Positions 39,275-62,890 of a DNA stretch of 64,000 nt are shown one piece after another (within the stretch, counting starts at the first letter, position 1; each line of letters begins with the position of its first letter). Under the pieces are notes generated by a model. That model ran no database searches, was not told where the DNA came from, and worked only from the letters and a program-made list of their open reading frames with translations. Source of the stretch: Pegea sp. RAD2-039 (taxonomy: Eukaryota; Chordata; Thaliacea; Salpida; Salpidae); NCBI GenBank assembly GCA_034620365.1, contig JAQGEQ010000314.1, forward strand, positions 124,001-188,000, in the 5' to 3' direction. The translations under genes and the position numbers were made by a program.

Positions 39275-42200
39275 ATGTCCCAAGTTCTTGCTAGTGTAGC
39301 TGCTGACTCTCTTCAGCCAGCTCACGCAAGTTATTATGGGGATATTGACAGTAAAAATCCAGTGATAATAGCTGGCGAGAAAGAACTTAATGAAGTCCTT
39401 GAGATTTTCAGCAAAAAATCCTCCAAAAAGAATTTTTCAAATGAAACTTTAAAAAGAGGGTAAAATTTTATCATGATTTTTTTATAAACTTTCAAATGTC
39501 GTTTTTTAAGTTGTAAAGTTTAAGATGAAATGTTTGTTTTATAGAAGTAATCTTCTGTTTCAAATCTGGAATAAATATGAGCCAAGATGGCCGACAGACT
39601 TATTTTATGAGCGAATGGTTTCCATTGGATATAATTTACTTGATTTAAAATCTTATAAAGTTGCACTATATCAATGTTTTCAAAGATATTTAATTACTCG
39701 GTATAAAGTCGACCCATATTGTATAGATCATGATATTAATTTGTACAAAAATACTTTTTTTCCTGAGAAACAATCGAAAAGTGATCACATCTTAACAGGA
39801 AAATCTTTGATTGTTAGTATTATTATGATTAGTTTGATAATTTATTAATATCTTTGTTTAAAGTTTTATTTAAAAGGATCTAGTTAATTTTTTTAAGCTT
39901 TTTATATCTTTGGTTTCAATTATTTGATTTTAATCAATTCAATATTTTTTTAAATAATTAGTTTTTATTTTGTGTTTAAAAGAATATTTATTCAAGTTTC
40001 AAGATAAAATTTATATATCTATAAATCTATTTTTTTTGTTTCTACTTTTTCTATATTAGTTATGCTAAAATGTGCTGTTTAAAAGCTTTTAACTGTCTCT
40101 TTGCAATAATTTTGTTTGTGTTTTCTATAAGAGCTGTATGAATTGTCATCTGTTGAATAAAATAAATGATTTGAAACAACTTTTTACAGGGAATGTCTAT
40201 TTGCAAATATCGACTAATGATAAAGAACGATATTGGAGTTGAAAGAAAACAAACTCTTGACTTGTGTGTAAAGATTTTGCATCAAATAAGATGTTTTATG
40301 CAATGTTTAATGATTGATGAAAAACTTTGTTGGCTTCTCTATAACTCCACAATAGTTATTCATGAAATTTGTAAAAATTTAACAAGTGTTGGTCACTCAC
40401 AACAGGTGAGAAATCCAATTTATGTTAAAAAAAAAAGCTAAATTAGTGTTATAGGCCATCAAGTTTCTTATATGGGCTTCTACTACCATGGAAAGTTGTG
40501 TTCCTCTCTTAACTATCAAGTATTTAGAATGGAGAACAACTTTATATTCTTCAGTCTGTTTTGCTTATTATGATTGTAATGGTGATAAACATGCACAGGT
40601 TAAAATCTTTTATAATTCAATTATATGATTCATGATTATACAATTTTTAGGATTTTGCTAGTAGAGCTTTACATAAAATAAAAGAATTGAAAGAACTAAC
40701 TGACATACAGGATTCAGAAAGTAACGAACAAGTGATTTTTAACAAGGTTTTTATGAGTTTAGAGTCAAGGAACAATCATTAAAGTGTTTTATTTTCAGGC
40801 AACTCATGAAATGGCATCTGCTGTTTTTAAAAGGTTAGTTTTTGAAAGTAGAAAAAGACCAAAAGGTTTATTGAGACCAAAAGTAAAGGCAAATTTGAAA
40901 GAAACTGCTCAAGTAAAATATGATTTGAGTTAATTCAAATAAATAAAAAGATATTTTATTCGTAGTCAACCTGGCCTCGAACCCAAACAGAAAAGTTTCT
41001 TTTTGATATGTTCAAAGGCAGTTCAGCCCAATTTCTCGCTATTATAGATGCTTTAAACTCACCTCACAAGCGAGTCTTTCAAACGAATCAATTAAACAAC
41101 GAACATGAATTTAATGAAGTTGTAAACGAACTGTTTTTTGCTGCGAAAGAGATTATTGCCGGTTAGAAACGTTTATTTGATGAAACAGAGACGCTAGAAG
41201 CGAGTTTTTTACAGGTGGGGGTGGTAATTCTTCTTCTATGGCATCTAGTTCTGATCATTCAACTCTCGTGGGAGTAAGATCTGATATGTCAATGAGAGAT
41301 CTTTCAGCTTATGGTAATCAAACGCGTTTTTATCCCAAAGTTTTTTAAACTTTTAATTCTTTTAAAGGTTATTCTGGTGTTACTTTAAGCGCTGTTGTAA
41401 AGTTGACTAAATTGGCTTTTTCATATGAACAATGGGCAACTTACAACAACTTACTTGATTGTACTTTGATATTTATTAAAGTAATTTTATTGTAATTAAC
41501 AACTTTATCAGCTGATCTGCTTAAAATTCCAGAAAAATATGGAAGAAGCCAGTGAAGAAGTAAAATATGAATACAATATCTACGAGTTGTGTCTTGCTCT
41601 TTTACTAACCACAGAAAAAGTAATCCGTCAACAGCACTTTATGCAATCATCTCCAGCAGTAAGAAAAATGACTGCTGGAAACGAAATGGATGGATTAAAC
41701 AAGACAGTAAATAATGGAGACGATATTTTATATGTTGCTGAAACATTACTTTATTGCATAAAAGAACCATCTTGTTTCGATTCAATTGGATTAGATAAAG
41801 AGCAAGCTATTACTAGGTCTTGTATATATTCGAAAGGTTGAAATATTGAAAGTATTTTGTTCGTTTTAGGGATATGCTTTTGGATGTCACCATGATATTA
41901 TGGTATAAGTGTAAACCTTTATTTTCTAAAGGTCAAATGGGTTTATGGGAAGATTCTGATTTTTCAACAAATAGTAACTTCGGAAAAGTTAGTTGTAAAA
42001 ACGACGTTTTTATACCTGGTTTCTAACATAACTTTTTAGTGGTTTCATACTTTGACTATCGTACATATGAGTTTAAATTGGATGAAAATTGGTTTAACAG
42101 ACCCTGTTTTAGTATCAGAAGTTGCCTTGAAGCTTTCTCTTGCTCTTGAAGCTGTCACTAAATTCAGTGAGTTAAAGTAGTTTCGTTGAAGACACTAAAC

Positions 42201-45200
42201 CTTGTTTTCGTTTAGATGATTACAGTGACCACGGGTTTAGCCTGCATACATCTTTTTCTTCCATTGGTAGTAGTCCATTTATGCAGCTGAATAATGCGCT
42301 TCATATAATTAAAGATGCTTTAAATGCTGTTGATTTTGGCAAACAACAATTATGTCCACGTGATTCTACAAGAATTGTTGATCTTATGATGATTACGTCA
42401 CAAAAAAAAGTATTTTAAATTTTTTTGACAAATTTTTTAGCTGAAATCTTATTTTTAGACAAATGAATTATCGATATTTGAATTGATGATAAATGATTTA
42501 AGAGTTGAGTTGTTATCTATTCACCATAGGATCAGTTTAAAATTAATATCAATGAAAAATAATTTGCCATTTCTAAATACAAACCCACAATCGTCTAATG
42601 GATATACTTTACCTGACAATTATTTGTAAGTTTTATAAATTTCATTTTATCGTTCAAATTTTTAATATTTTTTTTTGTTTCTTAATATTATTGATCAGAT
42701 AACTTTTTAAAGTATTTTTTTTTAATTTAGTGAGTTAATCTCGATGGAAAACCTTCTTGAATCAGTCGGTTCATCACCTACATCCAAATCTCTACTTTTC
42801 ATTCAACAATCACTCCAAATATACTCTAAAGATCTTTCAGAAGCAAAAGCTCTTTTAAAAAAAGCTTTTCAGGAAGTTATGAAGGAGGAAAAATATAATT
42901 TAAGGTTTAATTCCTTTCAATATATTCTAATTAGATTTTTTGTTTAATTAAAAGTTAAAAATCTTTTTTTAGATTATACAACAATAATTGCAAAGAACAA
43001 AATATCTCAGAAAATAATTCAACTCCATCAGCACCGATTTTATTATCTAGAAGTTGTACAAAAATGATATTCAAGCCACCAGTATTTAATCCAGCTAACA
43101 CTAAAGTAAGTTTTTATCAAAAATAAATAAAAATAAAACCAATTTTTAAGGTTTGTTGGTGGAAAATTTTTGGTCGAAAAAAAACGGATCTGGCTCAAAA
43201 AGTTCGATTAAATGACTTTTCATTAACAGGTTTGTTCAAAATCATCAGTTTTATCATTTTAACTTTACAAATATCAGGTACTGGGGAAGAAATACCTGCT
43301 GGAGAAGATAGTGTTTTTGTCATTAGTAATTTAGAACCAAATAAACAATATATGTTTGCTGTAGCAGCATATACAAACAGAGGAAAATTAATAGGTGCTT
43401 CAATCGGAAAAACTAGTCAAGAAATTATTTCGTCTCATGCTACTTCTATTTTAACAACTTATGGATATTTAGCTCAAGTAATTAAAACGTTTTTATTTGA
43501 TGTCAAAATCAATTTTTAATCTTTAGGTTAGTTATACTATTGAAGAAAATGAATTGTGTAAAAAAGCATGTAGTACTCTATGGAATTATTTCATTTCATC
43601 TTCAAATGTTAAAGACACAAAAATTAGAGATTATCAGTTTCAAACTCATCATTTAAACCGTAAAAAACTGATGAAAGCATCTCCTATCTTACTCCGGCAT
43701 CTGATGACTTCAGTACAGATCAATATTGATATTATCGTCCAAGAAAAAGGACTCCTCTTCAATCATTCTTATGATGAAATCGATTCTTTACCAAGTATAT
43801 TGTTGAAGTTATTCGTTTTTTATATAAAAAATTTCATGTTTAGATCAACTGCTTCGTTTGGAGTGTTGTCAGAAGATGCTAGTTGCTATAGAGCTTGCTA
43901 ATTGGTTAAATGATTCATCATCTCATCTTCAGTGTATCATACAAACATATGGATTAATTGCACCAATAATTCAAGCAAATATTCTTTCATCACATGTTAT
44001 GGAGGTTTTTTGAAAAACCACAAGATTCAAATTTTTAAAAATTCTAATTCAGATTATTTTGAAATGTTTATCTGATTTGAAAATAATCTTACCAGCTTTG
44101 AAAACCAATAAAACCATTCAAAAAAGTCAATCCATCAATCAGGTGGTCGCATGCATGAGTAACTACGTTGCTAAGGTGACTGAAAATAACCAACCAGAAA
44201 CAAGAATGATAAAAAAATAAATTTAAAGGTTGCATCTTCGAATGAAGATAGACTTCTTGCTCTGTCATCAATTCAAATCGCTAAAGATATACTAAATCCA
44301 CAAGTTGGTGTTGAAGACAGTAAAAAGACAAGTCGTAAAAAACAGAGGTAAATTTTGATGTAACTTAACTTGACAAATAACGATTATATCTCAGACTCAG
44401 ACCACAGGAGAACTTAAATGAGATTATGATGCTAGAAAGAAGATTCTCTGAGATTCAAATAAGTGTTGATCAAGTCGGAGAACTCAAAGGAACAGAAGAC
44501 TCACATGAAGTTTACGCAAAATTATATTTGATGCAGACTACAGCAGCGTTTAGAGAATTAACTAAATTTAAAAAGAGATATAAATATTTGGAATATTTCG
44601 TTTATGTTCGTGTAGTTTGTTGTACAATGTCTCATTTTTAAATCAAATTTGTTTTTAGGCTTTGAAGAAAGCTTTTCGTTGTGGTAATACTGAAACTGCG
44701 ATCACGTGGAGTAAAGATGTCCTACAAACGCTCCATAGAAGAGCAGAGATTATGAATGTTTATAAACCATTAACTTATAAAAAAACTGCTGTAGCTACAA
44801 ATGAAAATAATAATTCGAGAAAATATGCAGCTGCTGTTGTTGAGTTCGTTCAAGCGACACAAGATAAAAGTGAAAGAAAAAAAAACAACCCAACTAATAG
44901 GTCGAAGATTTTTTCTTTCGAAAATTTGAATTCTAAAAATTTGAAAAAAATTTTTTACTCAGCGCGAAAAATAAGGTTAAAAAGTTCCGCCCATTTTGGA
45001 AGCGTAAAGGAGGTCCTGGAGGTTCTCCAGAGCAAGAAGAAGAAGAGCAGATCGCAGCTGGACGTTTAACAATCTTTCTGATTCCGATGATCAAAAATTG
45101 GCAGAAAAAGAAGATATTAAGAAAAGTTGTTGATTATTTCATGATGATGGTGATCTTAAATAAATTCTTCCAGTTGACGATTGATGAAACTCCGTGGAGG

Positions 45201-48200
45201 TCGGATTTTAACCGCTTGGTGGCGCTGATGTATATGCAAATGTATTTTGAGAAGTTAGATGAACGAAGAAAAGGATTAAGAATTTCAGAATCAAATTTCT
45301 ATGATTCAAATTTCTTTAATCACGTGATTACTCCGAATCTGATCTTTATTTTCAATAAATTTGATTCTTAAACAGGAATTATGGTCTTTTCAAAACTCTG
45401 GTAAACTTGTTTCTGATTGGACGGAAATAAATGACGCTGAACAAACCAACCAATCAGGAAAGAGTCCTCGAAAAAGCTCAACTAATAAAGAGATTGATCC
45501 GTTATTTATGAAGAAGAATGATCAAGATGAACCACCAATTGAAGAGGCAGCAAGACTTGCAATCACTTATACACTGAGTAAAGAGCTAAGATCAACTCCC
45601 TGACTTGATCCTTACATCTTCAAATTCAGCATCCAATACTATTGATGAAGCAACAAGTGAAATGGCTCTTATATCTCCTCCAGGATTTAATGAACCATCA
45701 ACTCGTACTATCCTTCAAAATGATGCTTTTTCCAGCGCTCTAAAACCTGCATCATTACTTGAAAATCTTAGAGTTAGTCTTTAGTTTTTTTTCTCATTTT
45801 TTTCATCTCATCAACTACAGATTGCAACGATAAGTTTCAAGAGATCTCTTGTTCTTGCTCACCGAGGTAGACATTGGATATTACTCCAAAACAACGCACA
45901 TGACATGTTCTGGTGTTTTCAAAAAGCTCTTCAATACGCTGAAGACGGGAGTGATTCTTTTGTAATCTCTTCATCTAAAATCAAGTGAAGATCCTCTATT
46001 TTAAAGACCTTTCGCTAATCTTCTTCAATTTCAGATCGATTTTATGTAAAACTGTTGCTACTTGTGCTGATTTGTTACTAGATATGATGATGGTTGTTGA
46101 TTGTGGAGATTTGAAAGAAAATAATGAAGATTTTGGGGGAAGCAGATTTAATTTTGAACGTAAACTTGATTATTCTCATTTAGTAGACAGAAAATTCTGC
46201 TATCAAGTCATTATTACATCTATTCATTTGTTACATAACGAAACCAGGTGAGGTTTGATAAAGATGTAAATAAACTATTTCAAATCTTTCAAGATGGGAA
46301 GAGCTAGTAGACATCTGTTTAAGATTTGAAAAAGTTACTAACAGAAAAATGACAGAATTAATCGCGCCTGTTACTGCTTATGCACAGCATCAACTAAGTG
46401 AAAGGATAAAACAGTTCAATAATCAATCTACTAACAAGTTAGATCACATTTGTGTCTGTTACTTTGCTTCAAACTTTCTTTTGAAGATATGCAATGAAAA
46501 AGAAACAAGACCTTCAATCAGAAGAGTTTTCTACGGAACAAGAAATATATGAATTCGGAGAAAGAGCTTTGCAATTATCTTGTGTTCCAGTTGACTTTAA
46601 ATTAACGTAAATAGACATAAACAATTGTATGACCAACAGAATTACATCTGTCTAATCTTATGTCTTCCTAGTTAGATGATCTTTAAACAGACTTCTTCAC
46701 AGCATCTATTATTTTGATCTTCAAACTCTCTAAACTTCATCTATTTATTTACTAATCTTTTCAAATCCGTTTTTGCTCGTTTTTCTTAAAAGATCTTTTT
46801 GGACATTTTAATCACAACTTATTTAGATAATTTTTATTCAAACTCTTAAAAACTTTAAACTACATCTTTTAAACGTTTCAACTTCTGCTAGAAAATAAAT
46901 AATTTATTTAAATTTGAAATCCAGCATTAAACAGTTATGAATTAATTCATCAAATTTAAAAGATTCATTTTTAAACTTTTTCAACATTTTTTCAGAATGA
47001 AGAAATTGAAGGAAATAATATCAAAATCTCAATATGTGTCTCGTTCACTAAAACATTCCAGAAATTTATTGGCACTTTACCTTGCCTCACATCAATTTGA
47101 TAAAGAACGAACCCACAACAAAAAGTTATTCTAAAAAGTCATTTTTAAACAAAATACATAAAAAAAAAAGCTTATTTCAGAATTCATAAAACTATTGATG
47201 AAAATGGAAGTAAATTCGTTGAGATGGCAAAAGCTCCAATAAAACCAACTGAAATCCATTTCAAAACAATTCAAATTAATACTCAACCACTAACAGAGAA
47301 ACAAGCAAATAATCTCATTAATTCTTATCTCAGGTTTCTCTATAACTTCAATTTATTGAAACTAAATTAAAAATTTGTAGAACAATTGAACTTTTAAAGT
47401 CATCATCACAATTTGATCTATGTGCTCAAGCTTATAATGAGTTAGCAGATATATATTGTCACCAAGGTAATATAAAAACTGCACAGAAATATTGGAATTC
47501 ATCTCTTGATCAGGTTTAATTTATATTTAATCAGATAAAAATATAAATAATTTACTTAACAGATATTTAAAATGGAAGATGCGATAAATAAATGGAGAGA
47601 TTTAGTAAAAGAAGATATGAATTTATCTGAAAAAATTCTTGAAATCTGTGGGTTTTGGGGTTGTTTTCATGCTATTACAGTTGCAGGAAAAATAGGTTAT
47701 TTCATTATTTGTTAAATTTCTCATAAAAATTCTGATTTCTATTTTAAACCAGGCGAGTTTTGCTTATCAAACACAGAAGATAGAATCAAACATGCATTAT
47801 TAATAAGTCAATTAGTTTGTGCTTTATTCAAATCTTCATTACCTCATCCAATAAATGAATGTGATTATTTATTATATGAACTAATACCACAGCAATGTAC
47901 TGAAAATATTGAGTTGTTAACATTTGCTCATGTAAACAGGCAAGTATATAATCGTGTGTTCAGTTTACTAACTTGTCTAATTTGTAGAATTCTCCCACCT
48001 CATATAATTAACCCAGGGTATGAGTTATTAAACGCAATTAGTATTTTCTCTGATCAATATCGAAGCAATCTACCTTCAGTTATAGCGTCTCTACATTGGG
48101 CGTGTAATCAACTGATTGAAAAAGAATATTTCATCAAATCTTTACCACTTTTAACTTTATATCAATATTTTGCGACCTTTCATGCCAGGTTTGTTAGTAA

Positions 48201-51200
48201 CTTTTAACTTTCAAATCATTAATTAATCTTTTTTATACAGAGACGTAAAGAGAAGTGTTTTATGTAGATGTTTGAAGCTACAAGTTTTAACAAAAATGAA
48301 AGATTTTCAATCAGCCTCTCAGACAGCAATCTCTTTATTATATGGATGTTGTCTTCCTCATTCTACTGATGTAGGCTATGCACCAATTGAGTCATACCCA
48401 ATAAATTCATATTTAGACAGCTCAAAACCTTTTACCTCACCAGAAAATTTACAAGTAAGAAATTTAAAAACTTGCGAATTATTTTATTAATTTTTTTGTT
48501 TAGGTTTTAGAAATATTATCTGGAAAAAGAGTAAGTCAAAAGATTGCAGCAAAATATGGTCCTCAATTGACATGTGAAGTTTCGTGCACTGTTTCTTATT
48601 TATTAATTACAATAGCAAGTGTGGTTGATGTTGTACCTCAAAAACCAACTATGTTAGATTTAAAGTTTGTTTCCTCGTTCAAACATCATGATAGCGACAA
48701 TAAATTAAGGTCTGTTTTTAAATTATTTAATTGTAAACACTGTTTCACGTAATAATTCCTAAATTATTTAGAAAATCTAAAACTACAAAAAAAGTAAAAG
48801 AAGGAAAACAAACTTTACCAGCAGTTCAAGTTGATATGGAAAAACATTCACTTTTATCTGTATTATCTTCTCATAATGTTTCAAATCTTCAAATAAATCA
48901 TATATTTACTTCAATGGATAAGCCACTCAGTATCGAGCTTTTTAAAGGTTCAGATTGATTCCAATCATTTTCTGACTAATTATACGAATCTATTATAGGT
49001 ATGCTTCTAGCGGTTGCTGAAAATATAACTCTGAGTGTCTTGAGACCTTTAGAAAATACTTTAAGCACGTTCCCTATTGGTCCTGCTGAGTTATGGTTAA
49101 TAATTCAAGGCAGGTTGAATCTTCTTTTAATCAATCGTCAGAATCAAGTAAATAATTCGTAATTTTGAAATAATTAATTAATCTGGTGAAATTAGATGTC
49201 TTCTTTGAGTGCATGTCAAATTTTAAAAGCAATGAAGTATATGCAAGATTCGAAAATATTTAATAAATCAGAAAATAAGCGAGAAAAAACTAAATATAAG
49301 GTGAGGTGGTTGTTTATGTCGATAGATATTTCGATATTTTGTTTTTTAGATGATTGATTCTTTCTATGAATCGCGTTTAAATTCGAGTCTTTGGTTAGAA
49401 TGTCATTATCAGTTTTGTTTGTCGCTTTCATTACAAGTCAAAGTAAGTGAAAAAAAGCAGATATATTTTCACAGGAATTATATTTATTTGTCTCAAATAC
49501 CTTTCAATTTAAGTTAATATTAAAAATATATTTGTAGATTGACGAAAATAATTTATCAAGCACAATTGACGATAAAGAAATACAAATGCATGTAGCTGAA
49601 GGAAGTAAACAAGCTGACAGTTTTAAAGATTTACAAACCAAAGCATATTATCTTATACTTGTAAGAAAATTCAGTTTTGTGATCAGTAATTATCTACAAT
49701 TATCTTTGTAGGAGTCCTCATTAGATGGAGTTACTAGTAAAGAAAGTCAGAGTCTTCTTAAAGATGCAATTGATTGTTTTGATCAGATACCTTATTTATC
49801 TGAAGTTGCTAAAGAAAAATTAGCAGAAGCGACCTTAAGATTAGTGGATGCTAAAATTTTAACTGGAGAAATTGATAATAGATTGGTACAACACCTTCAA
49901 ATGTTTATTTGATTCTTATGATGTCTTCATGACAAATTTTAAGAATTAAAATTAAACTCAGTTGATGTTTTTAATATATTTTAAAACTATTTTTTCATCA
50001 AGTCATATAGTTGCCTTAAAATAGTATCTTGTTTAGATCTCAAAAACTTATGAAGATGTCATCTCTTTGCTGTTAATGAAGTCCGTAGATGAATGGGAAT
50101 ACTTGGATGATGGTGGCTCATCTCTTGCTCTTCCTCTAAAGAATCCTTACTCTTCTAATCACATCCTACTAGTTCATTCAAAGCTTCGATATGCTATCTC
50201 GTTACAACAGGTTCATCTTCATCTTCAAGCTTCTTTAAGATTCATTTGATCTTTTATAGAGAGCTTTAAAAAATGATGAGGATCTAGATTTGATGCTGAA
50301 GATATTAAAAGAGTCAGAACAACTCTGCAAAGTTTTGTATAACGCAGATTTTCTTCTAGCAGAGATTACTTATTACCTTTGCAAGGTTAGTCGTCAGCAG
50401 CAATAAATCTTTAAACAAATCTTATTCTGGTTCTCTCAGTTTCTAAGGGTAAAATCAAATCATGATACAATCAGATCAGTTCATACGAAGACTAGAAAGT
50501 TCTTATCGGAGATGATGTCGAATAAATCCAGTTCTTTAGAATTAATCCGATATTTCTGTTTAGAAATGGCTTTAATTGAAATAAAAATATCTGAAAATAA
50601 GGTACGACTAACATAATATCATCATTAAGATAATATCAGGATTTAATTCAGATAAATACTAATTTTGATGAAGAAGCATCAAATGATGAAGATATCTTGA
50701 GTTTTGATTTACTTTCAAATTATTCTGAAGCTAAAAAAAGAGCAATTAATCAGATCTATAATGCTTTTTATTACCAAAAAATGGATAAGATTAGAGCATC
50801 TCTATTTACGAATAGTAATGTAAGATCTTCTTAACATAGAAACCAAAAACTCATAATTGATTGACAGGTTACTGATGAACAATTAACCCCAGAAGCAACT
50901 GACTCAATTCCTGATTTTGCTATAATGGACACGTCATCTCACTACAATAAACTTCCAACTAATTTGTTATTTGAACGAATTTTTCATGATGATGACGATA
51001 CAAGAGTGACTCTACAGATGAAACCAGATGAATTTGATTTTGATTCGTTTGTAGATGCGATAAGAAAACAGAAATCTCCTTATTGTAGTTGGTTGTTATT
51101 TCTCAAATACAAAACTTCACTACAGCGGTTTGAAATTTCTTCAAATTTCTTTTCTTTCTTAAAATAAAAACTTTTTTTCAGCAAACTTCGAGTAACTACC

Positions 51201-51852
51201 AACAACCTCTCTAAAGTCAACCATGCGTATCCAAGTGACGTCACACGCAATGTAATGACGCCATTAAACTATAGAGACTACTACATCCGCTTCAACAAGA
51301 TCAATGATTTCTTATCATCCAATTTTGGACCTTATTCAGAAACATATGAGTCTCCTCCACCAAATCTTCCAAAATCTTTTGTTTGCTTGCAGTGGTATCG
51401 TAATGACGTAACTGTTGGCCAGGTTACACTTATTTGGGCAGCAGTATCTGGTACTCAAATGTACTGTGGGACAAAGATGGTACCCACCGACCAACTTTTA
51501 CAGATGTCACGTGGTTTAAATTTGTTGAAACAGGTCAGTTGTTGATTGGTTGGATCGTTTTTTTTTATGTTGAAATTTACAGCAAACTGAAGAAAATTTC
51601 CATCTGAAGAAAAGTGAAATTGAATCAAAAACTCAACCAGTGAGTAAAGAGTTACAAGATCAGTGGAAAGATGAAGTTAAGAAGATTGCGTCTTTGTTAT
51701 CAACAACATCAATTGAAAATTTAGAAGATTTTGTCATAAATTTAAAAACTGTTGAAGCTTTAAGTAATTTGTTGGTAATTGGTGGTTTTTATGATAAAAA
51801 AAATCCGGTTTTTAAGTTGCTAGTTCAAATTTTATGCTCACATTTCACTTAA
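39275..51852 (+). CDS. cfap54: CFAP54, ciliary central-apparatus protein
   Basis: Several dozen short exons across 12.6 kb spell a very long protein. The N-terminus matches CFAP54: SYYGDIDSKNPVIIAGEKEL, LFQIWNKYEPRWP, then KFLIWASTTMESCVPLL. Further on is a fibronectin-III-like segment with VRLNDFSLTGTGEEIPAG and MFAVAAYTNRGKLIGASIG (exons near 43.2-43.5 kb), a hallmark of this family. Many helical TPR-like segments follow, including YNELADIYCHQGNIKTAQKY and a WRSDFNRL motif. The protein ends LVQILCSHFT at 51852. CFAP54 is part of the C1d projection of the axonemal central pair and is needed for ciliary and sperm motility. I followed the frame through difficult stretches: at 44.9 kb an intron of about 60 bp (about 44901-44961) restores the frame, and near 45.1 kb a short intron precedes LTIDETPW. 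I saw no disabling break. The start ATG at 39275 lies just after an acceptor-like site. Confidence 0.93.
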
Positions 51853-52600
51853 AACTATTTCCTAAACTTGTACAGTTAGTATTTTCAAATAATTTGTGAA
51901 ATAATTCATTCATTTCTAAACAACTTAATCAATTTCTATTAATATTTGTCTCAAATAAGTTAATAAAACGAAATTTTCAAATTAATGGTTTTTTGTTGAA
52001 AGTATTCGACTTGAAACAAAAGCACAAAAGCAAGTTTATGATTTTGATATATTTTGTAACGGTTTACAGTTCTTCAAGAAGATAGTTTGTCTAAAACAAG
52101 ATTATATCATCTCTAATCTTTCTTTTAATCATCTAATTGTTCTGATAATTCCACTTCTTATAAAATCTTTAAAAATGTTAATCAGGATTTAGTTAAGACC
52201 TTTTTTTTAAAAACTCAATTCTAGTCAAGATTATTTTTAACTAATTTCATATCATAAGAGATTGGATCAAACAAATAAAACTAAAAATTTTCTATAAAAA
52301 TGTTGAAAGGTTTGTAGCAAAGCTGTTATCACAAAAATCAACATTTTTTCATTTATTAATAATAAAACTGAATGAGTCTAAGTTATCTTGATGGTGACTG
52401 AAAATTTAGGAGGAAAAAATAAACGGAAGACATAATATTATGTCTAGAAGATCTGATGACTTGATGTAGTAATTTTAAAACAATTTTGATCAACTAACCA
52501 TAATCATTAGCTTAAACATTTAGCTTTAAAAGTTCGATCACAAAACTTTAAATATCAAAACATTTCATAAAAAAGATAAATAACTTTTAATAAATGTAGA
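51853..52600. other. convergent intergenic region
   Basis: The 3' flanks of CFAP54 (plus) and the B3GALT6 cluster (minus) meet here. AT-rich; no exon, RNA gene or repeat recognised. Confidence 0.5.
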
Positions 52601-52602
52601 AA

Positions 52603-53535
52603 TTAACCTCGAATACAACATTCAGATGGTTTTGATGACCAATTATATTCATAAGGACGGAAATAAGTTGTTTCTTTTAAACATATTTTACCATTAACCC
52701 TTAAATTGTTTGACTTCATCTTCAAATCATCGATACTTTGTTTATGGGAAATTAAAAATGAATTTAAACAACCACGTGATTTATATTCAGTATCAAATCT
52801 GACGTCATGACGACGATTTATACGTAATGCTGCTGTCCAAACACCAATTGTTACATCTTCACTTAAATACATCTCAAAAAGTTGCCAATTAGTCGAGATA
52901 TACGCGACGATGTCACGTGACAACAAATATCCACCACCACGAGCGTATGGGAGATAATAATCACACAATTTCCAGTTCTGTTCTTTCCAAACCCCTGTCT
53001 TCTTCACTCGACCACGTCCGTAAAAGTACCCCCAATACAGCATGACGTCATCACGACGTAACTCGCGGTATAAGAGCGCGACACGGACGAATGAATCATC
53101 ATCTACTTTAAGCAGAAAGTCGAAGTTGAAATTGGTGTTGATGTAATCGAAACTTTTGGCGAGTTTTAAAGTTAATGATTTATATTTGTCGGTGAGATCG
53201 GGTAATAAAATCATATCCGCCGACTTTGAAGCTTCCATTTCCAGCGAAATTAGTAAATCTTTCTCGAGGTCTTTTGTTCCTATTACAAATCGAAAAATGG
53301 CGTCATCGCCGATTCCGTCATGCTCTATTGCGTCAGCAATCCATGTATTGCGGATGACGTCACGACGTTCTCGATTTAGAGGACTGGTAATAATCAAAAC
53401 GAACAATCGAACAGAATAAGAGTGATTATTGTGTAAAGAAGGTTTTTTTAGAAAGTTTGTTGGCTTCCAAAAAAGAAATAAACAAAAAAAGAAAAATGAA
53501 AAACAAAAAAAAAATTTTTTTTGTCGAAATTTCAT
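52603..53535 (-). CDS. b3galt6: beta-1,3-galactosyltransferase 6 (GAG linker synthesis)
   Basis: Uninterrupted frame of 310 codons, single-exon like its vertebrate counterpart. It is a type II membrane protein: short basic N-terminus, then a Phe-rich membrane anchor (residues about 8-24). The GT31 domain shows RRDVIRNTW, the metal-binding DDD in LLKVDDDSFVRV, then YWGYFYGRGRVKKTG, LCDYYLPYARGGGYLLSRD, SEDVTIGVW and FDTEYKSRGC, all matching B3GALT6. This Golgi enzyme adds the second galactose of the Xyl-Gal-Gal-GlcA linker on which heparan and chondroitin sulfate are built. It is distinctly less AT-rich than its neighbours and contains three TGACGTCA sites. Its ATG overlaps the LYRM9 stop by 4 nt (ATGA), so it probably shares a transcript with the genes upstream. 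Confidence 0.95.
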   Translation of the reverse strand: MKFRQKKFFFCFSFFFFCLFLFWKPTNFLKKPSLHNNHSYSVRLFVLIITSPLNRERRDVIRNTWIADAIEHDGIGDDAIFRFVIGTKDLEKDLLISLEMEASKSADMILLPDLTDKYKSLTLKLAKSFDYINTNFNFDFLLKVDDDSFVRVALLYRELRRDDVMLYWGYFYGRGRVKKTGVWKEQNWKLCDYYLPYARGGGYLLSRDIVAYISTNWQLFEMYLSEDVTIGVWTAALRINRRHDVRFDTEYKSRGCLNSFLISHKQSIDDLKMKSNNLRVNGKICLKETTYFRPYEYNWSSKPSECCIRG

Positions 53536-53762
53536 TTTAATTTTTTCACTAAATCGTCATCAATTTTATATTTGTTCAAAATCCATTTAGCGTCTTCTAC
53601 AGATTTCTCGATGAGCTGATTTATCCGTTCCTGATCAGTCTCGTCACGAAAAGACTCGAAATTACTTCTAATTAGATATCGATAATGACGTTGATTTGAT
53701 TTAGGTAACAGGAAACAACACTTTAGTAAATATTTATAAAGTTCTTTTGGAGTTTTTGTCAT
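53532..53762 (-). CDS. lyrm9: LYRM9-like LYR-motif protein
   Basis: 76-codon frame beginning MTKTPKELYKYLLKCCFLLP; the start at 53762 follows a strong acceptor directly (TTTCTTTGCAG then ATG). The LYR-family core is present, here as LYK with a later HYRYLIRSNFESFRDETDQE and AKWILNKYK, matching the length and end of vertebrate LYRM9. LYR proteins are small mitochondrial helical bundles that bind acyl-ACP and assist complex assembly or Fe-S delivery; the exact role of LYRM9 is not settled. It lies 42 nt after the APH1 stop and overlaps the B3GALT6 start by 4 nt. No introns. Confidence 0.88.
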   Translation of the reverse strand: MTKTPKELYKYLLKCCFLLPKSNQRHYRYLIRSNFESFRDETDQERINQLIEKSVEDAKWILNKYKIDDDLVKKLK

Positions 53763-53804: not shown

Positions 53805-54530
53805 TTAGGAACGGTTGGTACATGCTTTGAAAAAATCGATCAAATTTGAATATTTGCCGCCCATAGTGATAAAACTCGCGGCCATCATGATTACCATGGT
53901 TACATAAACGCTTGTTATCTTAGCTGCTACACTGGGTACCAATGTAATCATAGCTACAAATAGATGTGAAGCAGGTACAATTATATAATGAAAATACTGC
54001 TTCTTTTCAAATGATTGAAAAGCGATAATATTCCAACAAATGTTATTGAAAACGACAGAATTACTGATAAGGGCGGAAATAAAGAAGTAATTATGAGTTT
54101 GTCCTTGAATACCAGTTACTCCTGGTCCAGACAGTTGGGCTAGGACGTTTACAATTGAAAATAAACATTCCATTAAACCAAAACCAAACCCAGCTACATA
54201 TGGAAGTCTGTGGTTTTTAATGCAATTGACTTCAGATACTGTGAGTGCTTCTGATAAACCATCCTTAGCTTTTGCCATAATTTTATAAAGAGCAAATCTA
54301 AAAACTTCTTGGAGTAAAACACTGACAACAACTGAAAAAGCTAACTGTTGACGTAGTGGCACCACAGCAAGCCAAATAAGAGATGTAAATAGTAATGATA
54401 AAAGCCAAAAAAAACTTCCAATAACCATCAGAATAATTCTTATTGGATATTTACTGATGGTGACAACAAAAAGTGAAATTGAAGGCCCTAAAGCCACCAA
54501 AGCACAACCAAATAAAAGAACTAAAGTCAT
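53805..54530 (-). CDS. aph1: APH1, gamma-secretase subunit
   Basis: Uninterrupted 241-codon frame with seven hydrophobic segments, the expected topology and length for APH1. Typical features are FGCALVALGPSISLF at the N-terminus, LLQEVFRFALYKI, LPYVAGFGFGLMECLFS (the GxxxG-bearing fourth helix), LSGPGVTGIQG and PASHLFVAM. APH1 scaffolds gamma-secretase with presenilin, nicastrin and PEN-2, which cleaves Notch and other type I proteins. Of the two conserved intramembrane histidines, the second (in SHLF) is present, but the first position, 26 residues earlier in FNNICWN, is Asn. An acceptor-like TTTATAATAG lies 9 nt before the ATG. It is the first cistron of the APH1-LYRM9-B3GALT6 cluster. Confidence 0.93.
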   Translation of the reverse strand: MTLVLLFGCALVALGPSISLFVVTISKYPIRIILMVIGSFFWLLSLLFTSLIWLAVVPLRQQLAFSVVVSVLLQEVFRFALYKIMAKAKDGLSEALTVSEVNCIKNHRLPYVAGFGFGLMECLFSIVNVLAQLSGPGVTGIQGQTHNYFFISALISNSVVFNNICWNIIAFQSFEKKQYFHYIIVPASHLFVAMITLVPSVAAKITSVYVTMVIMMAASFITMGGKYSNLIDFFKACTNRS

Positions 54531-56200
54531 TTTAAGCTTCTATTATAAATCTGTAAAGACCAAATGTTATATTGATAGCAGATAATTTATGATAAAGTTT
54601 ATATCTAATATTTATTTCCATAAAAATTTTTAAAATGATTATAAATATATAAATATATAAACATAATAAACTAAATAAGTTAATAAAACATATAAATACT
54701 GAAATTAAAAGTATTAATGTGACAAATTAATACAATTAAAAGTCAATAATAATAATAAACTAAATTTCAAATTATAATTTTATTAATTTATTAAAATTAT
54801 TTTATGAATAAACTGAATACAAATTTCCATAAAATTTTTTAAAGTTCAAATTTTTTAAGTAAAAATTATCTTAATAAATATATATTTTGTAATTCTGAAG
54901 TTAACAAATAGTTTGCTTGATGTATATCATCTTTACAACTTTAATAAATAAATAAATAAAAAATATTAAAAGTTTTATACCTTGATAAAAGTTTAAAAAA
55001 TTATTTAGACAAAAAGTTAGATTAAAAATATAGAAAAAGTAAAAACTTTCAAAGTAAAAAAACTTTAATAAAATTATTCTTTATTAATATTTAACTCAAA
55101 AATTTTTATTTCCGGAAATATTTAAAACACAATTTTTACAAATTAACAACTTTATAAGACGTTAGTAGATATTAAAATGTTTGTTCTGAATAATAAACAA
55201 TATTTTCAAAAAGATAAAAATAAATATTCAAATAGCATAGTATAACTTTATTTCTAAATCGATATTATTTATTATTAAGTTTGATTTTCAGATATAATCA
55301 AATAGAGCTTAATACATAAAATTGTAAAAGTTACAAAATCATAATAAATATTTGATTGAATATGACCCGTATGTTAACAAAATGGACAAAAACGAAAATG
55401 GAACTTCGAAAAAACTAATATAAGCGTTACATGAAAGAACTTAAAAATAATAGTTTTGTTCAAAGCAAAAACTAAAAGTTTCAAAATTATCTCATAATAA
55501 AAAAATGTTGATTATAGAAAAATACTGAAAGATCTTAAGTAAAACATTTCAGCATAAGTAGTATAAAGAAAAAATAGAAACACTGCAAAGATAAATTTAT
55601 ACAAGGTATAACCAAATTAGAAATCAATAAGATACAAAATAAATCGAAAAATTGAAGAAAATAGTTGCCTTATATACTACTTAATCATAATTTTAAAAGA
55701 AGTAACAAAATTCACCGTAGTGTCAGAAAAAAATTATAAAATGTGCCTACCCCAGTAAAAAGACTATTTATAAAATTGATGCAATTTAATTTTATGATGG
55801 TTGACTAATATGTCGTCGGTATGCTGTAAAGTTAATAAGTTAAACAATGATTTGTCAAAACAAGCTTTTTATTTTCAACTTTAAAAAAACTATTAAAGAA
55901 ACTTTTACCTTTTCATCACATTTACAATTTTTAGGCAAAAAACTCGACAAGTATTATTTAAATGGAATAAAATTTGCTGAACTAAACTTAAGTAAACATT
56001 TTTTAGTGATAACTTTACAGATATCATAATTAATATTGGTTGTTAGATACAAAATTTTCAAATATGCTACCTACTGCTATCTACTTATCTGTTGAATTTA
56101 TAGTCAAATGCAATTTTCTCAGAAAGTAAAAAAATGTTTCTTGTTAGCATTTTAGAGATTTTTTAAATAAGCGAAATAGAAAAGGAAAAAAAGTAGATAC
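54531..56200. other. intergenic, APH1 to GH9 gene
   Basis: Extremely AT-rich 1.7 kb. No exon, RNA gene or dispersed repeat recognised. It includes the promoter side of the APH1 cluster and the 3' flank of the GH9 gene. Confidence 0.5.
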
Positions 56201-59200
56201 TTAATGTAAAAACGTACAATAAGCGTTCAAATACAAAATATAAGAAACAATTAAATAAATAAAAGAGAAATTAATTGTTTCGGTGGAGTTACACATTTCT
56301 TTCATGATTCTAAGTTCATCAATTCTATTTTCGTCTTCATTCTTCCAAAGTTTCCAAATATTCCAAGCTTTTACACAATGACCGACTTTTGAGTTCACGC
56401 AATTCTGGTAGCCCTCCCATCTAAAACAGAGATTTGATAAAATGTCTTAAAGCACTTTTGGCACCAAATCTCAAAGTTAATCGATTAATTGAAAAAACAA
56501 AATAATAATTTAAACTGAAATATGTTTATACTGTTTCTATCTTTTAATAAACTTGTAACAAATTCTGAATATACTTTGTAAAGTTAACCAGTAAATACAA
56601 ACAAGTTTAAAAATAATAAGTTAATTTATCAATCGACTCAAACGTCTTTATTTAATTGAAAAAACTTTTTAAAAACTTAACTTATAAACGTAAAATAAAA
56701 CATTAAGTTTTTAGAAAGACTTATTTAGTCATCAATGATTTATAAACCTGCAATCTGAGTGGTTTTTATCTTCTTTAAGACATTGTTGAAATGATGATGT
56801 AAGTCCTCTAGTTAGGCATTTACTGATAGACTCTATAAAGTTCCAATAAACAAATTATATTCTATTTATGTTACTAATAATATTTCATCAGCAGCATACC
56901 TGTTTGTTTATCTACACAATCAATATCTTCTTTGGAAAACCAAACTGATGTTTTAAGTTCGGCATTCCAAAAAATAAAACTCGACCAAACATTTTCTCTG
57001 CATCTTGAACTTAATTTATTACAACATTCCTAAAAGTCAATTAAACTTCCATTATTTCAAATCATTTCACTTTTGTTGTTTATTACAACTAATTTTAAAA
57101 ACCTGGAAGGCTTTGTAGCGACAGAAATGCCGTTTTCTCGAAGGGTGGTTCTTAAATTGATCTCTTGGTATTGAGCACGCTTCAAATACAGTTTTAGGAT
57201 CACATCGAAACTCTAAAACAATTTATTCAAAATAACTCAACTTTAAATTTCATATGAAGCAGTAAATGAATTACCTTTTTGAACTGTTGGAATTACTGTT
57301 GTTGGTTTATCCACACGAATAAGTTTAACTGATTGTTTAGTCTTAAAGTCAACTGATGACTGATTAAAAGATAAAGTTGTCGTGGGTTCTGTTGTCAGTT
57401 TTTCACTTGGAACTTGTGATGTAGTTGACTGATCAGTTGCCAAAACTTTTCGTTTAAATGTATCAGTTGTAATCTCTTCAATATTTTCTTTATCAGATGA
57501 CTTTGTTGTCAGATTGCTTTCTGTTATTTCATTGGTTGTTGGTGCATTTGTAATACTTTCTGTAATTTGAATGGTTGTTGGTGCATTTGTAATACTTTCT
57601 GTAATTTGAATGATTGTTGGTGCATTTGTAAAGCTTTCATTTACTCCAGTGAACTGTTTAGGTGTTGTTGTAACTTTTTCTGTGATTTCAATCACATTTT
57701 CTTCAGTCATATATTCAATTGAGTCAATAATCTCATCAATATTTATATAACCATTTGTAAAATCACTTTGCCAGTTATTAGCAAGCAAAGTTCCTTCATT
57801 TGTCGTAATTGTTGTTAAAGATGGAGAAGTCAAGGAAGATATAGTAGATGTTGGTGAAGATGTAGATGTTGGTGAAGATGTTGTTGGTGAAGATGTAGTA
57901 GTTGGTAATGGATTTATTTCTAAGAACTTCAAAGCAGCAACAGTAGATTGAAAACAAGCATTTTGCTCAAGTGATACTTTTGTAAATCTGCCGAAACATT
58001 TTCTTATTAAATTCAGATAAATCTTCAACTTCATCACCTGCTCTCTACTCGCTTATCATCAAAGAAATCGTTTTTATCTGGACCTGCCACTAGTGCTCCG
58101 TATAAAATATTCGGATTACTTTGATCGCTCCGAAGATCAGAGATTCCACACTCCAGCGGAGGTAAGGGACACGAACTTAATCTGCATAGAGATCAATTCT
58201 AAGACAAACTTTCAAATGATACTTTAAAGTTTTTCACTTACCGATGATATGGTCTTTTTGGTGGGGTAGGTCCGTAACCAACAAGGTAACTGCCTCGACC
58301 GCTATCACCTAACATATACCTAATCTGCTTTTCAGCAAAATTATGGTACTTTTCTGGCTTGATACCAAGCCGGGCAGCTTGTAGACAGATGAAGGACACA
58401 CCAGCTGAATATTTAAGAGGGGAACGATCGTTTATATATAGAAGACCTAATGGTGTGAACCTGATGTAAATTAATAATAAATTTTGGGACTTTTTTAGAT
58501 CTTTAGAGTACCTTGCATCTTCATTATCTATAAATTGATCACAAAATTTCTCTATCGAATTCTTATATTCCTGTTTTCCAGTTATTTTGGCAAATAAAAT
58601 ATCTACTGCAGGTGTTTTTTCATCATAAAAAAATCCTTTTAAAGTAATTCGTTCTTTTAAATTAAAACTTCTATAAAGTGGCTGAAAAAAATAATTTTAA
58701 GCAAAAAAAAAATCAAAATATTTTCTGTGTGTACCTCAGCATATTTCTCAATGTATACTTTCTCTCCAGTTGCCATGAACAACCACAAAGAGGCCCATAC
58801 AATCTCATCTTCATATCCTGACACAGATCTGTAGTAGGGAGCAGCATCTTGAATTGATCTATGAAGACACATCTCATTCTAAACTCTTTTGAACGTCAAA
58901 GATTTACCGATGGTATCTTTCACGATATTTGAAAGCAAATTGAAAAATTTCTTTAGAATGTTTCACTAATAAATCAGCATAATCTGAATCGTTAGCAATT
59001 ACACGAAAAACTAATGAAGCAGCAGCTAATGAAGCAGCCATTTCAGCAACTAAATCACTTCCCGCTTTATCTTTATCTAATTTAAAAGCTTTTCGTTGAA
59101 TATTTAACATATCTTCCGGTCTTTTCCAAAACTTTTTCTCCACTTTTGCTTCACCAACCTTAAAAAAAAATTCAATTTTCATCATAATTTCAAATTCTTC

Positions 59201-62200
59201 TCTTTTCTACCTGTCCATATAATTCATACTCAGACACGTGGCACTTGATAAAGTAGTCTGTGGCCCATTTTATGGCCTTAATCACTTGAGGCAGCTGACC
59301 GGCAACTTGGTAAGCATCTTTATACTCTATTACTCCCCAACTTAAAACAGTTGTTGTGAAGGCCATTGGGAAGTTAAATTTGATGAAACCATCTCCATTA
59401 AAGTATCCTCCGCTGAATTAAAAGAGTGAGAAGATGAAAATGATGAAGATTAAGGACCTTAGATCTTCTCCGTTTATTCCTACATCATCTTCGAATTGAG
59501 AAGATCTCCATGAGACACGATTATCAGCAGGGAGTGCCCCTGATCTTTGCGCTTCATAGAAGAGGAGAGATTTAGTGAGGACTTCATTAAGATCATGATG
59601 GATTGAGAAAGATTGGGAGACTTTCATCCTTAATTCTTCTAAATTTGGGTCTGAAAATGTTTCTCCAAAAACCTAGGAATTTAAAAAGTTTAAATTTTTT
59701 GATTTTAATTCATCATTTTACTTGAAGCTGAAGAATTCCTGCTGATAAACACTGAAGTCCCGCGTTGAAGAGGAGCGAGACCTTATTACAAGGATCTAAT
59801 CGATCCTCAACATCAAAGTGATCCCAGCTAATCAATAAAAAAAATCTTCATCTTTTGAATGATGAAGATTTGAAACTAACTTATCAGGACCAGAAACTAA
59901 TGCTCCTTCTAAAATCTGAGGATTAGGTTGATCAGATTTAGCAAACGTCCAATCACAAGCCTCAGGTGGACTTGGACATGAACTGGCACGATGATATGGT
60001 CTTGTTGGTGACTTTTCACCAAAACCAACCACATAACTTCGACCACCATCGCCTAGATATTTCATTTTTTAAATTTAAATTAATTAATTGGATAATTTCA
60101 AACCTAAAATATAAGATAATTGACGATGTGCAAACAGCTGTAGACTTCTTGATAAGATTCCTAGTTTAGAAACGAGAAGACACGAAAACGCGATATTTGC
60201 TGAGTTCATTAGAGGTGCCTCGTTATCTAAATACAATAAACCTTTTGGTGTGTATTTAGCGCCACCACCTGGCAACATAAACAAACAGAGATCCGTCAAA
60301 CTGCCGAGATATTCCTGCCTACAACAACAGTAAAATTGTGTTTGTTGAATATCTTTGTAGTTTTACTTGTTTGTTATTTGAGCGAGTAGAATAGTAACGC
60401 CAACTCTTTTATCATTCCAATCAAACTTTCGCATTTCTTTTTTACCAATTTGGCTTTTTTTTAACCTGCTTTCAGCTTTTTCTAGATATTCATTTTTATT
60501 TGTTGCTTTAAACAACCAAGCAGCTGCCCACGCTAATTCATCATAATAACCTTCGGAACTAAAATTATTTTATTTTAATTTGAAATTAATCTTTTTTCAA
60601 CCAACTTACGCGTATTTAGAAGCAGTAGGAATACTAGTTTGGTATTTTCCTCTGTATCTTTCAGCAAACTCGAATAATTGCTCCGAATGTTTCAAACATT
60701 TTCTACAACAGAAATATTCTTGAAAATCGTTGAATATTCAATAAACAAACTAACCTAGCGTAAACAGGTTTAGTAATATTAAAAAGTAGATAAGTTGTTG
60801 CTAATGTAGCTGCAGTTTCCGCAGCTAAGTCAGACCCAGGTTTACTCCGAGTTAGCTTAAAAGATTGTCTTTGATAATTCATATCTTCTGGTCTTCCCCA
60901 ATAAACATTTTCTACTTCTTCTGTTGAAACCTGTAAAGTAATATTTGTAATTGCGCCAAAAAGGTTTGTTGAAAACCTGAGCGAATAATTCGTAGTTCGA
61001 CGAATGACATTTAAGAAAGTAATCCGAAGACCATTGAACAAGATTGAGAACTTCTGCGTACTGCTGGGAAGCAAGATATGAGTTCTTGAACTCAATGACA
61101 GACCAAGCGATTAAAGTAGTTGAGAATGCCATCGGGAAATTATATTTCACAAAACCGCCGTCTGTTTTAAAGTAAAATGTTTTTATCGTTTTTATTATAA
61201 TAAAAAAACAAAATTTGAAGAGATTTTTTACAAATTATCTAAAAAAATAAAAGATTTTGATTGAAACAAACGGAAACTTTTAAATATTTCATCTTAGAAT
61301 TTAAACTGTTGTCGTTTACCACTTACCTACATAATAACCACCAACCAGGTCTAGTTGGTGGTCAAGACCATCTCTAGTTGCTGAATGAGATCTCCAAGAG
61401 ACACCATCATTAGCTCCAGGCGAATTTATTAGCATCCCAGATCGTTGAGCCTTAAAAAACCTCAGAGATAAAATGATGACTTGCCTCAAGTTGTATTTGA
61501 AATTCAAGGATGCGAGACTTGGTGGAGTTTTTGGGGGAGGGTTTGTTGACTGCCTAGAAAATAATCAGAAGTTAGAAGAAATTTAAAAAAGATTTCTATT
61601 TCGAAGTTCATTTTCGAAATCAAATTTTATCGTTTTTTTTTATATCATTATTTATTTATTACAATAAACGCGAAGGAGGGTACCTGAAGAGAGTACCTCT
61701 CGCTAACACACATTCTCACAAATAACATTTATTAGTTAAAAATATAGAAAGCAAAAGATGTAACACATGACATTTCAGTAGTCCTCAAATCATATAACAG
61801 TGAACAATTACATGGAATTATTATAATATTAAAAAAAGAAAAAAATACAGTTTAGAAATGATAATGTTGACAATGTTATAACGGTTCAACTTCTGCTTGA
61901 ACAACGCGAGCGACTTCGACATGACAATGTCTGATGGCAGCTGGTTCCAAGCACTAAGTTAAGTTGGAATATAGAAAGTAACAGATGTAACACACGGTAT
62001 TTCGATAGTCCTCAAAGCATATAACAGTGAACAATTACATGGAATTATAATAATATTAAAAAAGAGAAAAAAATCACAGTTTAGAAATGACAATGTTGGC
62101 AATGTTATAACGGTTCAACTTCTGCTTGAACAATTTAAGTTTAAAATAATGAAAAAAGAGACTTACTGAGAGCTTGTGGAAACTGTAGAGTCAGTTTTCA

Positions 62201-62890
62201 TCCACCAAGGAGTACTTATAGTGCTGAGTTCATCAGCACCCAGAAAAGTAGTTGTTGTTGTTGTTTCAGTTGTTGTTGTTCTGTAACCAACAAACCAATT
62301 CAATAAAATTTAAGTGATTTATCTTCTTCTGACTTTGGTAACGTGATCGTTTCACTAATCTTTCCTCCAGTAGCTCTCATTAATGCTTCCTCTACGGTCT
62401 CATACTCATCTTTCATAGCGATGAAAAGAATTTGAGCATTAGGTGGCTCAGAAGATATCTCTGATGATAGAAACCAACTAAAGACGATCTCAACACTCAA
62501 ATCTTTGATTACTTGCTTGAAAACGGAGATTCCTTTTGCCTAAAGCGTCGATATGAAGAACTTTGTTATGATCTAAAGGAAGAATGACGTAAAGTCTTCC
62601 ATCTAGATGAGAGCCTGCTAGATATCCTTCAAAAAACTAAAAATATTTTAATTTATCGAAGCGTGAACTGTAACTTTCTCACTAACTTTAAAATCGCTTA
62701 CAGGTGAATCAAACAAAATATATATAATCCACCCATAAGGGAACTTCTTAACTGCTGGGAACGTTACTGAACCCTCAAAACCACCAGGCCATTTTGTTTC
62801 TACTTTAAAATCAGCGAACATCACCTCACTAGTTACTAGTTTGCTTATAAACATCAGCAACAACCATATATCAAATACTTGTAACCTCAT
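56201..62890 (-). CDS. tandem GH9 (endoglucanase-family) protein, probably catalytically inactive
   Basis: About 23 exons with matching phases give roughly 1,550 residues. Order: signal peptide (MRLQVFDIWLLLMFISKLVTS); a family-2-like carbohydrate-binding module (KVETKWPGGFEGSVTF, YGWIIYILF); a Thr-rich linker; GH9 module 1 (about 61.55-59.72 kb); GH9 module 2 (about 59.67-57.95 kb); a Ser/Thr/Pro mucin-like linker; a Cys-rich domain (57.2-56.3 kb); and a hydrophobic C-terminal tail after CNSTETINFS suggesting a GPI anchor. Family landmarks occur in both modules: FF(K/E)AQRSG-like entry, NFPMAF, RPEDM, GSDL.AE, RPYHR..SSCP and GPD. The canonical GGYYDAGD site is GGYYVDGG in module 1 and GGYFNGDG in module 2, and the catalytic Glu in NEVA is Lys in both (NKVS, TKVS). 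Both modules therefore look inactive. The modules are joined in frame across one intron. A LINE sits in the intron before module 1. Confidence 0.88.
61649..62145 (-). mobile_element. non-LTR retrotransposon (LINE) fragments, copy d, two pieces
   Basis: On the minus strand the piece at about 61960-61649 begins inside coding sequence: LSAWNQLPSDIVMSKSLALF then KQKLNRYNI, the standard C-terminus of CR1/L2-type reverse-transcriptase ORFs (a WN.LP..I motif). Its 3' UTR with the conserved stem and an AATAAATAA tail follows. Immediately upstream, 62145-61963 is a second, shorter copy carrying LFKQKLNRYNIANIVISKL followed by the first part of the same 3' UTR, cut off where the other begins. Both lie in the intron between the Thr-rich linker and GH9 module 1. 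These define the family of the fragments at 9.0, 26.5 and 29.0 kb. Confidence 0.85.

Follow-up and report, generated by a model that had tools for sequence, protein, structure and literature searches.

Two fused GH9 modules without the catalytic triad in a predicted surface protein of the tunicate Pegea

Introduction

The GH18 hydrolase family includes members, among them chitinase-like proteins, chi-lectins and Idgfs, that became non-catalytic through loss of the active site, and among the chitinase-like members some are sugar-binding or act as organisers of a polysaccharide matrix (PMC3662789, PMC4738247). The chi-lectin TCLL lost its activity through active-site mutation (PMC3662789), and the Idgfs of Drosophila have been suggested to play a structural, non-enzymatic part in the chitin matrix (PMC4738247). 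Here we describe a gene in which two GH9 modules, both without the catalytic residues of GH9 cellulases, are fused in frame. It lies in a stretch of 64,000 nucleotides from the tunicate Pegea sp. RAD2-039 (assembly GCA_034620365.1, contig JAQGEQ010000314.1, positions 124,001 to 188,000), which we call the window and in whose numbering coordinates are given unless another contig is named. By analogy, we propose that the encoded protein may work most like the GH18 chitinase-like proteins, from which it differs in fold and in polymer, theirs being chitin; some of them have demonstrated sugar binding, whereas binding by the window protein is putative only. As a pseudoenzyme derived from a polysaccharide hydrolase it is of a known kind, with no new fold or chemistry.

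Tunicates already offer a cellulase domain that lacks its catalytic residue. Tunicate cellulose synthase (CesA) combines a GT2 domain with a GH6 domain that is without the catalytic Asp (PMC7464555, PMC10334666), a loss that probably preceded the branching of larvaceans, and Oikopleura GH6-1 carries Lys at the catalytic Asp position (PMC7464555). The CesA domain differs in belonging to GH6, in its bacterial origin and in its fusion to a synthase; the family described here is GH9 and comprises six modules in four genes.

The plant protein KORRIGAN is membrane-bound through an N-terminal anchor. Like the window protein, it is a GH9 protein of a cellulose-making organism, and it differs in that it is regarded as a cellulase that forms part of the synthesis machinery (PMC10334666, PMC10986139). 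We found no description of inactive animal GH9 proteins in the open-access literature searched by title and start of abstract, a scope that leaves subscription journals mostly outside, and the passages of PMC6011409 consulted make no mention of inactive GH9 members.

Results

The gene spans positions 56201 to 62890 on the minus strand and has 24 exons encoding 1505 residues. Module 1 (M1; exons 5 to 12, 59722 to 61553) and module 2 (M2; exon 13 to the first part of exon 20, 57909 to 59672) match the Pfam profile Glyco_hydro_9 (PF00759, cut-off 27.7 bits) with 381 bits (E 1e-113, profile positions 7 to 442 of 444) and 389 bits (E 6.8e-116, positions 3 to 442), so that both belong to the GH9 sequence family by score and by coverage of most of the profile. 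Comparison with sequences in the PDB gave the endoglucanase 1ks8 as the closest solved relative of both (E 2.6e-115 for M1 and 3.2e-126 for M2), and residues are numbered after it throughout. Against the animal GH9 endoglucanases 1ks8, 3wc3/8ihw and 4zg8, which we take to come from a termite, Eisenia and Perinereis, respectively, E-values range from 3e-126 to 3e-103; the homology extends over the whole domain, with 44 to 48% identity to 1ks8 and 43 to 44% to 8ihw. The original prediction, made by a model from the letters of the window, had described two complete GH9 modules joined in frame at 57950 to 61552. Both modules are indeed contained in that span and joined in one spliced gene with near-complete profile coverage, but the gene as a whole is longer.

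Neither module retains the triad Asp54/Asp57/Glu412. Alignment to 1ks8 places V/G/K at these positions in M1 and N/G/K in M2; where GGYFDAGD would stand, the modules read GGYYVDGG and GGYFNGDG, and for NEVA they have NKVS and TKVS. This bears out the motif changes and the triad loss originally read from the window. All six codons were re-read directly from the window on the minus strand: in M1, Val (GTA, 61328 to 61330) for Asp54, Gly (GGT, 61154 to 61156) for Asp57, the catalytic base, and Lys (AAG, 59782 to 59784) for Glu412, the catalytic acid; in M2, Asn (AAT, 59397 to 59399), Gly (GGT, 59388 to 59390) and Lys (AAA, 57978 to 57980), respectively. A splice junction, that of exons 5 and 6, touches only the Asp54 codon of M1, and the remaining altered codons sit inside exons. 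That alternative splicing might restore the triad had been named as a possible refutation; this was rejected, as none of five in-frame donor/acceptor joins at this junction, including that of our model, yields DAGD. Judged by sequence, the modules are members of GH9 but are not GH9 cellulases as defined by the triad, and we regard them as almost certainly catalytically dead.

The gene model was built by hand and checked by script. From an ATG at 62890 to a stop at 56201, its coding sequence of 4518 bases has no internal stop; all 23 introns are GT..AG, and 20 of them measure 45 to 73 bp. The chance of 1505 stop-free codons at the base composition of the coding sequence is about 1e-48, a figure that overstates the case because exons were picked for being open. 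A purpose-written, profile-based spliced aligner recovered the GH9 exon boundaries from genomic DNA, although this re-finding is not fully independent because the profile consisted of two enzymes plus M1 and M2 themselves. The GC content of the coding sequence is 37%, against 28% for the window. Intron 12 (59673 to 59721, minus strand), the 49-bp gap between the modules, links them in frame; if it were left unspliced, M1 would terminate two codons on (VK, then stop). By eye, no signal-like start was seen before M2, and we rejected two separate genes on account of this, the shortness of the intron and a parallel fused pair elsewhere in the genome. The gene can be taken as real, intact and unusual on its open spliced frame and clean introns, in line with the preserved gene first proposed. 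Within intron 4, the longest of the gene (613 bp), a segment of about 165 bp is directly duplicated at 61741 to 62133 (89 to 91% identical, spacing 227 to 229).

The window gene is not the sole triad-less GH9 gene in this genome. Across 105.7 Mb in 387 contigs, a Pfam GH9 search that scores the best candidates only, so that its counts are lower bounds, gave at least 41 exon-level matches, all among seven contigs, and at least nine modules at seven loci. All nine were modelled: the Asp/Asp/Glu triad is kept in three (C15, C59 and C6) and missing from the other six, which fall in four genes. In M1, M2, C262a, C262b, C18 and C3, respectively, residue 54 is V, N, D, D, V and D, residue 57 is G, G, G, T, D and G, and residue 412 is K, K, S, R, A and D. 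The C262 modules (contig C262, about 412364 to 417097, minus strand) are fused, their in-frame junction spanning two GT..AG introns (64 and 53 bp), and the open reading frame of C262b continues into a hydrophobic tail, which makes C262 the site of another tandem pseudo-GH9 gene, with a product that is probably anchored. A thyroglobulin type-1 domain (Pfam E 2e-10, about 258012 to 258305) lies just upstream of the C18 module and a sushi-like region, below cut-off, upstream of the C3 module, each on the same strand as its module and likely part of the same gene. The ends of two models are inexact: for C18 a spurious three-residue start was trimmed and a spurious 8-base last exon kept, and for C262a nine residues were appended from the frame read. 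On these models, this tunicate genome holds at least four GH9 genes predicted to be non-catalytic. Reverse-transcriptase-like open reading frames were seen by eye 3' of two GH9 genes, at about 2704463 to 2704672 on C3 and 258317 to 258466 on C15.

The substitutions in the six modules gather around the active site. Six enzymes (1ks8, 8ihw, 1js4, C15, C59 and C6) served as the reference for invariant positions, of which there are 106; seven of these are changed in all six non-canonical modules, namely Ala55, Ala106, His124, Tyr408, Glu412, Ala414 and Tyr417. Positions 408, 414 and 417 fall within five residues of Glu412, and Ala55 adjoins Asp54. Overall, the 18 invariant positions that lie no more than six residues from a catalytic residue are lost at a rate of 53%, against 22% elsewhere. 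Permutation within modules gave an expectation of 0.04 shared losses and a maximum of 2 in 20,000 trials, against the 7 observed, in a test that counts related modules as independent and thus overstates significance. As a bacterial control we used the best 80 of 395 confirmed relatives; the control is uninformative on positions 54 to 57, because the search patterns included DAGD. Glu412, His124 and Ala414 show no variation in these best 80, and 79 of them have Tyr at position 417. At position 106, five of the six non-canonical modules have Cys and the sixth Thr, and all three canonical modules have Ala.

Read from the alignment, this pattern is not one of random decay, and it amounts to active-site loss within a preserved hydrolase domain, as in chi-lectin-like pseudoenzymes. 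A rough ratio of nonsynonymous to synonymous divergence (dN/dS) between M1 and M2 is 0.39 (dN 0.55, dS 1.41), which is only a hint of constraint because dS is near saturation. Viral contigs scanned with the module alignment gave 247 pattern matches and no relative.

The history of the two modules is less simple than their shared Lys412 would suggest. The original prediction had taken the common Glu-to-Lys change to mean that activity was lost before an internal duplication; given the differing introns, a weak tree and the S, R, A and D found at position 412 in the four other modules, that order of events is not established. M1 and M2 are 46% identical and have exactly one intron position in common (116, phase 0) of seven each, and on these grounds a recent internal duplication was rejected. 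In a tree built with the catalytic columns left out and with 20 of the 80 bacterial rows, in which C262b is very long-branched, M1 and M2 pair with weak support (82/50, not starred). Eleven private residues, absent from all nine remaining rows, join M1 and M2; other pairs have up to 10. M1 and C262a have introns in common at 55 phase 1, 116 phase 0 and 207 phase 2. The first two tell little, since they also occur in triad-bearing paralogues. The third is present in M1, C262a and C262b and missing from the triad-bearing paralogues, M2 and C3; together with a nearby C18 intron at 210 phase 2, it hints that some of the non-canonical modules share an ancestor. A single origin of all six modules was set aside, as they do not form one clade in the best tree, though forced monophyly was not rejected (approximately unbiased test, p-AU 0.243). 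Lys412 may be inherited or convergent in M1 and M2, and the gene arose either by an old duplication or by fusion of two paralogues.

Outside the GH9 modules, the predicted protein is organised as one would expect of a secreted, membrane-tethered protein, with glycosylphosphatidylinositol (GPI) as a possible anchor. Exons 1 to 3 (62334 to 62890, minus strand, as for all features of this gene) encode a signal-like stretch, called by hydropathy from hydrophobic residues 3 to 19, and an N-terminal CBM2-like domain. The latter scores 11.9 bits against CBM_2 (PF00553), below the Pfam cut-off of 24, and so falls outside that family as curated; it resembles a stretch found before the C3 module (E 1e-6 to 8e-6), and a domain joined by eye upstream of the paralogue C59 reaches 28.9 bits. 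A CBM_2 search of the whole genome gave no matches at E 0.01, probably because the exons are split. Exon 4 (62167 to 62280) encodes a Thr/Ser-rich linker (residues 151 to 205, 47% Ser plus Thr). After M2, exon 20 continues into a Ser/Thr-rich stalk (57275 to 57908; residues 1114 to 1324, 36% Ser plus Thr over 211 residues) holding about three units of a 39-bp tandem repeat at 57517 to 57638. Exons 21 to 24 (56291 to 57212) encode a Cys-rich domain with 13 Cys, for which no Pfam match was found at E up to 1 and no counterpart elsewhere in the genome, each of four matches being the gene itself. The hydrophobic C-terminal tail (56201 to 56290), GPI-signal-like or a membrane anchor by hydropathy, reaches 1.74 at residues 1481 to 1497, eight residues short of the C-terminus. 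Compared with animal GH9 endoglucanases, the window protein lacks Asp54, Asp57, Glu412, His124 and Tyr417, and has two fused modules plus the stalk, Cys-rich domain and tail. Tethering at a surface is probable on this layout, and the signal-like start, stalk and tail lend some support, from hydropathy and composition, to the suggestion that the protein is a matrix or receptor component.

The genome also carries a candidate cellulose synthase locus. Contig C14 has GT2 at 72156 (39.2 bits) and, about 2 kb away on the same strand, a GH6 domain at 74494 (27.5 bits, barely above the cut-off of 27); the GT2 open reading frame contains QRSRW, which we take to fit the QxxRW motif of cellulose synthase. 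With GT2 and GH6 side by side, as in tunicate CesA, C14 is a predicted CesA-like locus, and the tunicate host assumed from the outset is supported. This CesA-like match was the only one in a genome search for GH6, and no separate GH6-1 gene, as reported for other tunicates (PMC7464555), was seen at the sensitivity of that search.

Discussion

On its sequence, the window gene most likely encodes a tethered binding or structural protein at a surface facing the cellulose matrix. Our best explanation, to which we give about an even chance, is a secreted, membrane-tethered, non-catalytic protein whose two GH9 modules hold or sense glucan. Both modules would have kept the (alpha/alpha)6 barrel of GH9 and lost hydrolysis, and the hydrophobic tail would anchor them at the epithelial surface with the stalk as a spacer. 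The modules, or the CBM2-like domain, would then hold glucan chains of the cellulose matrix that the animal itself makes, or would sense them, in an action that would parallel that of non-enzymatic chitinase-like proteins in chitin matrices. Taken separately, glucan binding falls just short of an even chance, and a role in the matrix of the tunic or house is a more tentative proposal.

Intact, predicted non-catalytic GH9 genes beside triad-bearing ones are concrete candidates for the attachment of the tunicate epithelium to its cellulose coat and for the organisation of that coat, processes that to our knowledge are largely open. Such a gene family would also add, to that of the GH18 chi-lectins, another example of matrix-degrading enzymes converted to binding or structural proteins. 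A bolder idea, which we consider rather unlikely, is that tunicates converted digestive GH9 cellulases into paired, membrane-anchored cellulose receptors ("cellulectins") that hold or sense the self-made coat. If so, cellulectins would be the cellulose counterpart of chi-lectins.

Several points weigh against a tethered glucan-binding protein. The signal and anchor were called by hydropathy alone, the CBM2-like domain lies under the Pfam cut-off, and the permutation test is inflated by the relatedness of the modules. Two of the seven positions changed in all six modules also vary among the best 80 of 395 bacterial relatives, of which 23 have Cys at position 106 and 8 lack Tyr at position 408. 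Trp301, Arg305 and His359, fixed in all of these best 80, are altered in both M1 and M2, so that binding in the cleft may be weak or gone. In addition, some other GH9 proteins also show variation at the His and Arg of the second GH9 motif (PMC6032398), and changes there are therefore not diagnostic.

The main rival holds that the dead GH9 barrels were reused in a surface receptor as modules for protein-protein adhesion or recognition, with sugar binding gone. It is a serious possibility, though we would bet against it. The loss of Trp301, Arg305, His359, His124 and Tyr417 from both modules is what it would lead one to expect, the presence of a Cys-rich domain and a stalk is suggestive of a receptor, and the thyroglobulin type-1 domain of C18 and the sushi-like region of C3, below cut-off, precede two other non-canonical modules on the same strand, as putative parts of the same transcripts. 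Against it stand the CBM2-like domain upstream and the retention of Trp127, Tyr206, His360 and Arg361 in both window modules; Tyr206 of M1 falls in a gap of the alignment with the bacterial rows and is Tyr in two other alignments. These cleft residues are taken to have the subsite roles known from Cel9A.

A third possibility, which we judge improbable, is a soluble regulator of the active paralogues, either a decoy shielding cellulose from the animal's own GH9 enzymes or a partner pairing with them. Triad-bearing and triad-less GH9 proteins do occur in one genome, retention of intron 12 would free M1 from the anchor, and Idgfs have been proposed to guard chitin against chitinases (PMC4738247). 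Such retention is only hypothetical, however, and the full-length form has an anchor-like tail.

We give still less credence to the view that the gene is decaying, that the assembly is wrong here or that two genes were taken for one. The evidence does come from genomic DNA of a single assembly, but 1505 codons free of stops, 23 clean introns and a coding sequence richer in GC than the window around it argue otherwise, as do the 49-bp separation of the modules, the absence, by eye, of a signal-like start before M2 and the second fused pair on C262. Least probable of all is that the protein is still an enzyme that catalyses a different reaction through other residues, such as the shifted Asp of VDGG or GDG: an acidic residue remains one or two positions from the lost ones in both modules, but base and acid are gone along with His124 and Tyr417, and the catalytic acidic residues are reported as strictly conserved in GH9 cellulases (PMC6032398).

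Other features of the window

Side by side on the minus strand lie genes of one open reading frame each for APH-1, a gamma-secretase subunit (53808 to 54539; E 7e-74 over the whole profile), and a galactosyltransferase (52606 to 53556; E 6e-29). At lower window positions, a plus-strand run of open reading frames from about 39500 to 52000 resembles one very long multi-exon gene. The run has a putative likeness to a ciliary protein such as CFAP54, but the three of its open reading frames that were searched had no Pfam match. On the minus strand at 35326 to 36834, one open reading frame encodes thrombospondin type-1 repeats (Pfam E 8.5e-11) followed by a Cys-rich, ShK-like segment whose likeness was judged by eye and which gave no Pfam match. 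Finally, a 113-bp tandem repeat forms two arrays, at 1792 to 5060 (about 29 copies) and 20069 to 21137 (about 9.5 copies), in which several frames stay open; by eye, the consensus units of the two arrays are apparent reverse complements and likely the same unit.

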